DNA of 35,747 nt from Spirochaetia bacterium (GTDB lineage: Bacteria > Spirochaetota > UBA4802 > UBA5550). The notes beneath the pieces were generated by a model. That model was not told where the DNA came from. It worked only from the letters and a program-made list of their open reading frames with translations, and made no database searches. This document shows positions 23,640 to 27,262 of this stretch, piece after piece. Both the position numbers and the translations under genes were made by a program. Where the stretch lies: positions 1 through 35,747 of the forward strand of contig VFJS01000026.1 in assembly GCA_009885955.1 (NCBI GenBank). Direction: 5' to 3'. Position 1 is the first letter of the stretch; each line of letters starts with the position of its first letter.

Positions 23640-23781
23640 GCCACGGAGACACAGAGGCACAGAGTTTAATGAGTTTTTTTATTAATATTTATAATTAATG
23701 TTATCATTATTATATTGATAAAAATTATCTTAATTCAATATAAATTACAATCATTCCTCCGTGTCTCTGCGCCTCTGTGGC
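23640..23781. repeat. Family B palindromic repeat, copy 1
   Basis: Two inverted 25-nt arms (23640-23664 and 23757-23781) enclose 92 nt of AT-rich DNA. Each arm starts GCCAC and is made of three similar 8-nt units of the form CACRGAGR. The element lies between the EF-G paralogue and the TonB-like gene, ending 33 nt before its start codon. Confidence 0.85.
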
Positions 23782-23814
23782 AAAATATTATTATCTTTCA
23801 TCAGGCTCTATAAT

Positions 23815-24711
23815 ATGATTAAGACATATGACATAAAGTTAAAACTCCTTTTTATGATTTCGATGTTTCTCCACCTTCTTTTTTTCATCATGATTATCCT
23901 CCCGAATTACCAGAGTTACAGCCAGAAAACGGACGAACTGCTGAAAAAAATGTCCTGGGGCGGCGGAAGGGATATTATTGTAAATATCAATCCCGATGGT
24001 GATAAGCTTTTGAATGATACTACACTCCTTTCCGATGTGGATTCCAGCGCCCAGGGATATATCACCAGGGAACCGGGCGACCGGTGGCTGAACAATTCCC
24101 TTGATTTTTTCAACCGGCAGGGTACCAGGAGTGTGGGACGGAACAGGGTTTCCTATCCAAGGAAAGTTGAGAATGTCATACTCAGCACCGATTCCGAGAT
24201 TGCCCTTTTAATAAAGCAGTATAACCCCGATGAAGGGGCCTATGGAAGTGACGGAGCTGATGAGCGGATCAGGATCCCCGACAAAAACGGGGTGAATATG
24301 AAGAATGCCATCTTCTATTCCAATAACGGGCTCTTTTCATTCAATACGGTAAAATTTAAGAATTTCAAGTACTTCAAGGAGATGAAGGATAAAATTTCAT
24401 CCAACTGGATACTCCCGGGCATGGCCAATATCGCCTTCGGACCATACAACCCGGTAACCGGCGCCTACAGCACCGCCCGCGGCTATGAAAGGTACATGCC
24501 CATCCCGAGCCAGCATGTGAAAATATTTTTTACCATGAACAGGAAGGGGGATATACTCAAAGTCATCCTCATCGATTCCATGGGAAACCGGCACCTTGAT
24601 AATTCATGCATTGATGCCATCAGGCTGTCGGTCGGTTTCGGGCCTGTGCCCGATGATATGAGGGGGGAGGAGATCGGCATTCCCTTCATATTCGGCTTTT
24701 ACGCATATTAG
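23815..24711 (+). CDS. TonB C-terminal-domain-like membrane protein
   Basis: 298 residues from ATG 23815; an earlier in-frame GTG lies inside the repeat arm and is unlikely. A single N-terminal membrane anchor (about 13-36, LFMISMFLHLLFFIMIILP) is followed by a periplasmic region. The last 75 residues resemble the TonB C-terminal fold: a beta strand FTMNRKGDILKVILIDSMGN, then LDNSCIDAIRLSVGFGPVP, matching the usual LD-x-A-AI-x-x-F-P pattern. It lacks the proline-rich spacer of classical TonB, and ExbB/ExbD are not nearby. A role in coupling to the outer membrane is possible but unproven; adaptor or gliding-type TonB-like proteins are alternatives. It is bracketed by two family B repeats. Confidence 0.68.
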   Translation: MIKTYDIKLKLLFMISMFLHLLFFIMIILPNYQSYSQKTDELLKKMSWGGGRDIIVNINPDGDKLLNDTTLLSDVDSSAQGYITREPGDRWLNNSLDFFNRQGTRSVGRNRVSYPRKVENVILSTDSEIALLIKQYNPDEGAYGSDGADERIRIPDKNGVNMKNAIFYSNNGLFSFNTVKFKNFKYFKEMKDKISSNWILPGMANIAFGPYNPVTGAYSTARGYERYMPIPSQHVKIFFTMNRKGDILKVILIDSMGNRHLDNSCIDAIRLSVGFGPVPDDMRGEEIGIPFIFGFYAY

Positions 24712-24928: not shown

Positions 24929-27262
24929 TCACGCCTTATCCAGCAGGTCCCTCATCGTCATATTGCCGAAAGCCTTTTTGCTGGAGTTCATGATATTTCC
25001 GAAGATCTCCTTCACCGCGCTCTTCAGTGGCGATGCCTTGGCTGAAGGAGGAATATCCAGGCTCACCTTGTTTATGATGTCGACAACTTCAGCCAGTTTT
25101 AAATTTTGCGGGGCATTTGACGGGGAATAGGTTGAGTCTTCTTTTTTCAGTATCAGGTTTTCCTCGATAAACAGGTTCAGGAAAAATTCCGTGTCATCAT
25201 CGCTCCCGTTTGTCGCATCCAGCACCTCTTTTTCCGTTGAGGAACCTTTCCCTTCGTCAAATTTTTTGTAAATCTGACCGAGCACGGCAAGCCCGAAATA
25301 TACATAGACATCTTTTTTCTCCCTGAAAGTCCTTGATAAATTCATGTATGTTTCAGGATGCATAAGGGTGTACGATACCTCCGCCCCGTAGAGGATTATT
25401 ACGGTGGAGGAATAAATCATCAGAAGGAAGAGAGGAATGGATGCCAGGGTTCCATAAACGGCAAAGGTCCCCTTTGCAAAGGCCTTTACATAGAATATGA
25501 AGAGAAGTATGAAAATAACCCAGACCGCACCGGTGAAGGCAGCCCCTATGGAAGCGTACTTGAACGGGACCTTTGTGTTGGGCAGCGTCATGTAGCATAG
25601 GGCGAAGAGGAGCCAGATGAATGCGAATGGGGCAAAGAAGTTTATGAGCATGGCTATGACGCTTTTTCCCTCAATTCCCTTCCATGTTCTCCCCATGTCC
25701 GTGGTATAATGGACAAGCCCCGTATCGCCGAAGGCCCAGACTCTGTCGCCCTTCTGGATGAGCCTGTTGATCTTGTAGGTCTCGAATTCCTGGGATTTCC
25801 AGTTGTCCCCCCCGTCGTCGGTGAATATGATATTCCCCTTGCTCCCTGCGATAAACCCGTTTTTTGCATCAAAAAAATGAGATGCATAGTAGTCGAATTC
25901 CTTGAATTTTTTTACTTTCCATGATGTCCCGCCGTCCTGGCTTACCAGATTAATGCCTTCATTGCAGTTGAGCCATATGGTCTTCGGGTTTACGAAAAAG
26001 GCATTGTTGATGTCCAGGTGCTTGTCTTTTCTTTTTGTCTCCTCCACCTGTTTCATGTTCCAGGTCTTGCCGCTGTCGCTGGTAAAGAGTATTGTACCCC
26101 TGCTTCCGGTGACAATGCCCTGATTTTTATTGAACGTAATCGATGTAAAGTCCGAGGTGACGCCTTCCCACTCCCTGGATTCCCAGTTTTTCCCGCCGTC
26201 TTCGGTGATGAAAAACATCCCGTCCCCGGCAGAGATGAATCCCCTTTTCTCACTCAGCATATGGATATCATTTAAATCGAAGGTATCCCATTTGGCAAAT
26301 GACCAGGTGAGGCCGTTGTCATAGGTATGGAGAATGACACCTTTCGTCCCGATTATCCAGCCTTCATTTCCGATGAACTGGATGTCCTTGAATTTTATGT
26401 CCTTCAGATCTATGGGCTCAAAACGAGTATCGTTGATCTGAAAGGATTTATCATTCTTATCAAAGGTGTAGACCCTCTGGTTGTCAAAATCGACGGAGTC
26501 TACGTTGAATTTTGCAAATTGAAAGCCCCCGTCCTTTGAGTGGAGAATGCTGGATTTGCTTCCCACAACCCAGTAACTGCCATTATCAGCTATATGTGCT
26601 GAGTAATAATCGGAAGATGAAAAGAATTCCGTGACCTTGGTGGCAACAGTGGTCCCGGCAATCAGCATCGCAGGGCCAAGCGTCAGGGCTGCCCAGTAGA
26701 AGATTACCCTGAGGACAATGGACCTCAGCTTTTTTACTTTCCATATATCATTAAGAGATTTCTCCAGTGATCTCAGCATTGCTGTTGCGGAAAAGACCAT
26801 GATGACAGCCCCGATTCCACCAATTTTGCCTGCATTGTCGACAAGCCCCGATATGGCCCCGAATATGGGGTCGATATTGATCTTCATGTTATGTTCCACC
26901 ATGAACATGGAGATTTTTCTGAAGAGCTCTTCTTTTTTTCCTCCAGCTCCTGAAAATACTGTGTAGAAGGTGAGGATAACCGTGACCGTTGGAATAAAGG
27001 ATACGACAATGGTATATGCTGTAGCAGAGGCCTTTGTAAGGCAGTCGTCAATCATGAATTTCCGGGTTGAAACGATGAATATTTTTATGAAATTTACGAC
27101 CTTATTCATGAATTTTTTATTCAGGGACTCTCCCATATAAATTTTTTTAATGAGGGAGGATAGGGATTCCTTTTTTTTCAGCAGCTTTTCCTTTAATTTT
27201 TCTTTTTTTACCGGGATTATTTCTTCCCTGGCGGTTTCATTTTGCGTAGTGTTATCGGCCAT
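24929..27262 (-). CDS. YihY/BrkB-type membrane protein with a beta-propeller inserted in a periplasmic loop
   Basis: 777 residues, against about 300-400 for ordinary YihY/UPF0761 proteins. A basic cytoplasmic N terminus (1-70) precedes helices at about 81-104, 147-165 and 184-210. Residues 212-532 are then soluble and repeat-built: seven Asp-box/YCF48-type units near 229-250, 301-322, 341-360, 382-402, 428-448, 469-488 and 508-527, of the form G-x-G-x-I-x-x-T-x-D-x-G-x-T-W, plus a degenerate one near 263-277. Helices 4-6 follow (about 533-557, 568-592, 602-627), then a winged-helix-like cytoplasmic tail (about 650-735). The positive loop at 166-183 places the propeller in the periplasm. YihY function is not established; BrkB relatives were linked to serum resistance. 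AAGGAG before the ATG supports the start. A single uninterrupted frame argues against an assembly artefact. Confidence 0.88.
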   Translation of the reverse strand: MADNTTQNETAREEIIPVKKEKLKEKLLKKKESLSSLIKKIYMGESLNKKFMNKVVNFIKIFIVSTRKFMIDDCLTKASATAYTIVVSFIPTVTVILTFYTVFSGAGGKKEELFRKISMFMVEHNMKINIDPIFGAISGLVDNAGKIGGIGAVIMVFSATAMLRSLEKSLNDIWKVKKLRSIVLRVIFYWAALTLGPAMLIAGTTVATKVTEFFSSSDYYSAHIADNGSYWVVGSKSSILHSKDGGFQFAKFNVDSVDFDNQRVYTFDKNDKSFQINDTRFEPIDLKDIKFKDIQFIGNEGWIIGTKGVILHTYDNGLTWSFAKWDTFDLNDIHMLSEKRGFISAGDGMFFITEDGGKNWESREWEGVTSDFTSITFNKNQGIVTGSRGTILFTSDSGKTWNMKQVEETKRKDKHLDINNAFFVNPKTIWLNCNEGINLVSQDGGTSWKVKKFKEFDYYASHFFDAKNGFIAGSKGNIIFTDDGGDNWKSQEFETYKINRLIQKGDRVWAFGDTGLVHYTTDMGRTWKGIEGKSVIAMLINFFAPFAFIWLLFALCYMTLPNTKVPFKYASIGAAFTGAVWVIFILLFIFYVKAFAKGTFAVYGTLASIPLFLLMIYSSTVIILYGAEVSYTLMHPETYMNLSRTFREKKDVYVYFGLAVLGQIYKKFDEGKGSSTEKEVLDATNGSDDDTEFFLNLFIEENLILKKEDSTYSPSNAPQNLKLAEVVDIINKVSLDIPPSAKASPLKSAVKEIFGNIMNSSKKAFGNMTMRDLLDKA

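Follow-up and report, generated by a model that had tools for sequence, protein, structure and literature searches.

YihY/BrkB membrane proteins are widespread, but no clear function has been assigned to them. The best-known Ycf48-like beta-propellers assist photosystem assembly. The YihY/BrkB family (PF03631; TIGR00765) is built on a compact, uninterrupted core of six transmembrane helices, and E. coli YhjD, which belongs to the same Pfam family, reportedly binds both LPS and LptB and acts in LPS transport (PMC3219608). Ycf48 uses a patch of arginines to attach to the membrane protein D1 on its lumenal face (PMC10403576). Here we analyze a stretch of 35,747 nucleotides from a Spirochaetia bacterium (contig VFJS01000026.1, here called the window), in which one gene joins a YihY/BrkB core to a Ycf48-like propeller. 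A search of an open-access library turned up no description of this architecture, in agreement with the initial annotation of the window, which knew of no such protein.

A propeller inserted in a YihY/BrkB core

The initial annotation, made from the sequence alone, described a single open frame encoding a YihY-type protein with a propeller spliced into a periplasmic loop. The frame, its strand, its coordinates, and the domain layout were borne out (Table 1), and the junctions that had been placed at about 26630 and 25665 fell at about 26627 and 25667. A Pfam scan, which the annotation had proposed, found both domains in one protein: Virul_fac_BrkB matched in two stretches (5e-40, 138 bits against a cutoff of 33.7), and PSII_BNR/YCF48 matched in three stretches that lay between the BrkB halves (1.6e-30, 106.8 bits against a cutoff of 27). 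Consistent with membership in the family, the window protein scored 105 bits against the TIGR00765 cutoff of 73 and kept the six-helix core with its conserved residues, but the compact core of the family is here interrupted by an insert of ~320 residues between TM3 and TM4, which makes the protein a variant. The nearest type is the long-tailed NF003256/PRK04214, which shares the six-helix core and the C-terminal tail but is not an equivalog (131.5 bits against an equivalog cutoff of 500). E. coli YhjD has no propeller and belongs to subfamily TIGR00766 (cutoff, 213.65 bits), to which the window protein gave no match at 0.01.

Table 1. Features of the YihY-propeller gene, with positions given in the window
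Feature	Residues	Coordinates	Strand	Basis
Whole gene, YihY core with inserted propeller	777 aa	24929..27262	-	Open frame, Pfam, survey
Charged N terminus and TM1-TM3, YihY/BrkB core	1-212	26627..27262	-	Pfam BrkB first part, hydropathy, HMM boundaries
Ycf48-like beta-propeller in TM3-TM4 loop	213-532	25667..26626	-	Pfam, Asp boxes, fold matches
TM4-TM6, YihY/BrkB core	533-640	25343..25666	-	Pfam BrkB second part, HMM boundaries
Predicted cytoplasmic C-terminal tail, no recognized domain	641-777	24932..25342	-	Pfam, hydropathy
Asp box SKDGGFQF	242-249	26516..26539	-	
Degenerate repeat 2, holding D258, N261, and Q262	252-284	26411..26509	-	
Asp box TYDNGLTW	313-320	26303..26326	-	
Asp box TEDGGKNW	353-360	26183..26206	-	
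Asp box TSDSGKTW	394-401	26060..26083	-	
Asp box SQDGGTSW	441-448	25919..25942	-	
Asp box TDDGGDNW	481-488	25799..25822	-	
Asp box TTDMGRTW	520-527	25682..25705	-	

Repeats and fold of the insert

All seven strict Asp boxes of the window protein were within the insert and none was outside it. Shuffled versions of the insert contained a mean of 0.1 and a maximum of 3 Asp boxes (20,000 shuffles), which rules out a chance origin of the repeats. An eighth repeat at residues ~250 to 290 was degenerate and contained no Asp box, matching the count of seven canonical repeats and one degenerate repeat made earlier. Within the degenerate repeat, D258, N261, and Q262 were nearly invariant across the window's order, and D258 was also present in 19 of 21 proteins from other, distant families. 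Conservation of these residues in a repeat that is free of an Asp box suggests that they form a specific site.

The insert was clearly similar in sequence to Ycf48/HCF136 (PF14870; 2e-21 across the insert) and had the same kind of Asp-box propeller repeats, and the closest solved structures by sequence were those of Ycf48 and HCF136 (PDB 2xbg, 5ojr, and 8am5). Structure prediction of the insert, also proposed in the initial annotation, bore out the claim in part, as Ycf48 was the top fold match but the propeller-only model was of low confidence (mean pLDDT, 52). The whole-protein model was likewise of low confidence (mean pLDDT, 43), and the TM score of the first-ranked Ycf48 in the Foldseek search with a low-confidence model was only ~0.3. 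Because the alignments were thin, the models are too weak for blade counting or surface mapping, and the spacing of predicted strands within them would fit eight repeats. The VIA-align rows that could be recognized were propellers, which backs the fold class only. We conclude that sequence comparison gives good support to a propeller fold and that the number of blades is probably seven or eight, the repeats being compatible with either.

The resemblance to Ycf48 has limits. Ycf48 is a separate seven-bladed protein, either lumenal or lipidated, whereas the window propeller is a loop insert in a membrane protein and may have eight repeats, and the window protein scored 109 bits against a cutoff of 326 for the Ycf48 equivalog NF010237. 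Moreover, Ycf48 has a conserved arginine patch, but in the window's order the sole arginine column above 80% was R280 (26/30) and no comparable cluster of six arginines was seen among the columns conserved in the order. We take the analogy between Ycf48 and the window propeller to be structural only.

Distribution and origin

To follow the architecture through the phylum, 296 Spirochaetota genomes were surveyed, of which 158 matched the window protein somewhere, a number that includes core-only and propeller-only matches. Loci were examined if the TM3-TM4 gap exceeded 250 residues within one open frame, and at 51 loci the same insert was found in the same loop, in the kind of search that the initial annotation had suggested. 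The insert was 321 to 330 residues long at 30 loci of the window's order and 346 to 398 residues long in 21 proteins of families f11, f22, f34, f38, and f41, with a weak propeller signal in f34; the TM3-TM4 loop of the other YihY proteins compared was at most 28 residues long. Core motifs such as NDIWKVKK were retained in the propeller-bearing proteins, and the propeller evolved faster than the core. Dozens of genomes that were assembled independently contain the composite, which refutes, to near certainty, the joining of two separate genes by misassembly. The gene was broken in one genome (G180; L091 7700-9900), and the interruption is explained by an N gap and by changes of frame, both most likely arising from the assembly.

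A maximum-likelihood tree was built from the membrane core alone, with the insert columns left out. Propeller-bearing proteins formed one clade (support, 100/99), and the tree required two changes, one propeller gain and one loss. The loss was represented by G107, a member of the window's own family, which encoded a 468-residue YihY protein without a propeller at the same locus and between the same neighbors. Where the two could be aligned, the G107 protein and a propeller-bearing relative were 63% identical; ~323 residues were absent from the G107 protein exactly at the loop, its core was intact, and a propeller of this kind was not found in the rest of the genome. In two further genomes of the same genus (G092 and G122), the YihY genes seen were all short and plain, and no long YihY was found. 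We conclude from the core tree that the propeller was gained once in an ancestor within Spirochaetota and was inherited mostly vertically, and that the architecture, a variant of a known family, evolved once and is found in several families of one phylum. The expression "spliced into" is apt as an evolutionary statement but not as the description of a recent or local event.

Outside Spirochaetota, the phylum of a Bacteroidota MAG (296 genomes) and the phylum of a Proteobacteria MAG (249 genomes) contained no composite among the matches listed, in which YihY proteins and propeller proteins were both present but separate. In the Proteobacteria survey, three genomes had longer YihY frames, which were rejected as composites because they carried N-terminal extensions and no insert. 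Within Spirochaetota, a different YihY insert of ~94 to 132 residues was seen in family f15 (L055, L056, and L073), a low-GC family that is probably Brachyspira-like. Like the propeller, the f15 insert occupies a loop predicted to face the same side of the membrane, but it lies between TM5 and TM6, has no Pfam match to a propeller or to any other domain, and represents a separate event.

Topology and tail

Hydropathy indicated six hydrophobic peaks in the window protein. Positive charge was found in the N terminus and in the TM2-TM3 loop, and the TM5-TM6 loop was uncharged. Hydropathy and charge together suggest that the N and C termini are cytoplasmic and that the insert is periplasmic. The tail had been described in the initial annotation as winged-helix-like, but Pfam detected no winged helix and nothing else of significance in the tail of the window protein. 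The earlier interpretation was supported for a YihY core with a conserved, Ycf48-like, predicted periplasmic propeller between TM3 and TM4 and was not confirmed for the tail.

Possible functions

The reading we tentatively prefer is that a YihY core in the inner membrane, which may handle lipids, carries its own docking platform on the periplasmic side. The core would keep its ancestral inner-membrane job, possibly the handling of an envelope lipid, and the propeller would act as a fixed platform that recruits a partner from the periplasm to the core, much as Ycf48 docks on D1. The two ends of a propeller lie close together, and the loop would therefore tolerate one. The lipid link of the core is drawn by family resemblance only, and in the host organism export of such a lipid would proceed by a route other than LptFG. 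One alternative with a lipid is help in LPS transport, like the role proposed for YhjD with LptB, for which the binding partners of YhjD speak, as does, in family f38 alone, a gene for an OstA/LptA-like protein immediately upstream of the YihY-propeller gene. YhjD belongs to a different YihY subfamily, however, and a search of 20 genomes from the window's family f1 detected neither LptF/G nor LpxC, although LptF/G was present in 252 of 296 Spirochaetota genomes. The f1 organisms probably lack LPS, and because these genes were not detected, canonical LPS export is unlikely in the family; an LPS-export role in the host organism is disfavored, and we regard LPS transport help as very doubtful. 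A further, very unlikely reading is that the propeller-bearing YihY serves as the inner-membrane component of a pathway that traffics lipid to the outer membrane, in which TamB has no part and, in the window's family, neither does LptFG; the propeller would then dock the periplasmic carrier or bridge. TamB was found in 168 of 203 genomes of propeller-free families and in 4 of 93 genomes of propeller-bearing families, two of these four being weak (counted by hand from tables), but the pattern was not used as evidence of a link, because it may reflect one shared ancestry event. Strongly matching TamB genes were seen in G032 and G097, where they were possibly reacquired, and no paper was found that joins YihY, AsmA, and TamB.

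The protein could also be a membrane-anchored analogue of Ycf48 that aids insertion or assembly of another inner-membrane complex, as its closest solved relatives are Ycf48 and HCF136 and as Ycf48 itself acts on a membrane protein. We consider this doubtful, since no conserved six-arginine cluster was seen, Ycf48 itself stands alone as a lipoprotein or lumenal protein, no client came to light, and homology alone indicates a common fold only. The propeller could instead be a periplasmic sensor that binds a small ligand or a damaged envelope component and signals via the YihY helices to the tail. In favor of a sensor, the periplasmic module and the cytoplasmic tail belong to one chain, the fold matches included periplasmic propeller sensors of Bacteroides, and f15 tails, though only these, gave a weak Rrf2/MarR-like match below the cutoff (2e-6). 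Against a sensor, the window protein's tail contains no recognized output domain, the tail was about as variable as the propeller, and long-type plain YihY proteins have the tail without any propeller. A sensor is thus unlikely, and signaling from propeller to tail is speculation because the tail is not recognizable as a winged helix. Finally, the propeller could be neutral decoration that is tolerated in the loop and has little function, consistent with its clean loss in G107, with the failure to find a long YihY in two other genomes of that genus, and with its faster evolution. The near-constant length of the insert and the conservation of repeat residues across the order, together with the presence of the propeller in five more families, make mere decoration quite unlikely.

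A probable binding module fixed onto a YihY core offers a handle on the partners of that core. The propeller can serve as a soluble bait, and G107 provides a natural matched relative that lacks the propeller alone. With this architecture, the Ycf48-like propellers also gain an example that is embedded in a membrane protein.

Genomic neighborhood

In most of the window's order, the YihY-propeller gene is a lone unit that lies between a convergent gene encoding a TonB_C-domain protein, with EF-G beyond it, and a divergent rpsU followed by RarA/MgsA. These neighbors suggest no function and no lipid link. The protein encoded by the convergent gene of the window (23761-24711, +) has one helix and a TonB C-terminal domain, and its counterpart accompanies most members of the order, the propeller-loss locus included. 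A promoter and terminator scan gave consensus matches and nothing beyond. The host genome (4.77 Mb in 117 contigs) also carries a plain YihY frame of 346 residues, and thus the idea that the composite is the sole YihY copy was wrong; no other Ycf48-like propeller was found in that genome. In family f34, an uncharacterized one-helix protein was encoded directly upstream of the YihY gene in most loci (L049, L050, L051, L052, L060, and L062), and the two tested gave no Pfam match. In one f34 genome, a POTRA/Omp85 outer-membrane assembly gene (L054:7665-10802, +) was located just beyond the YihY-propeller gene.
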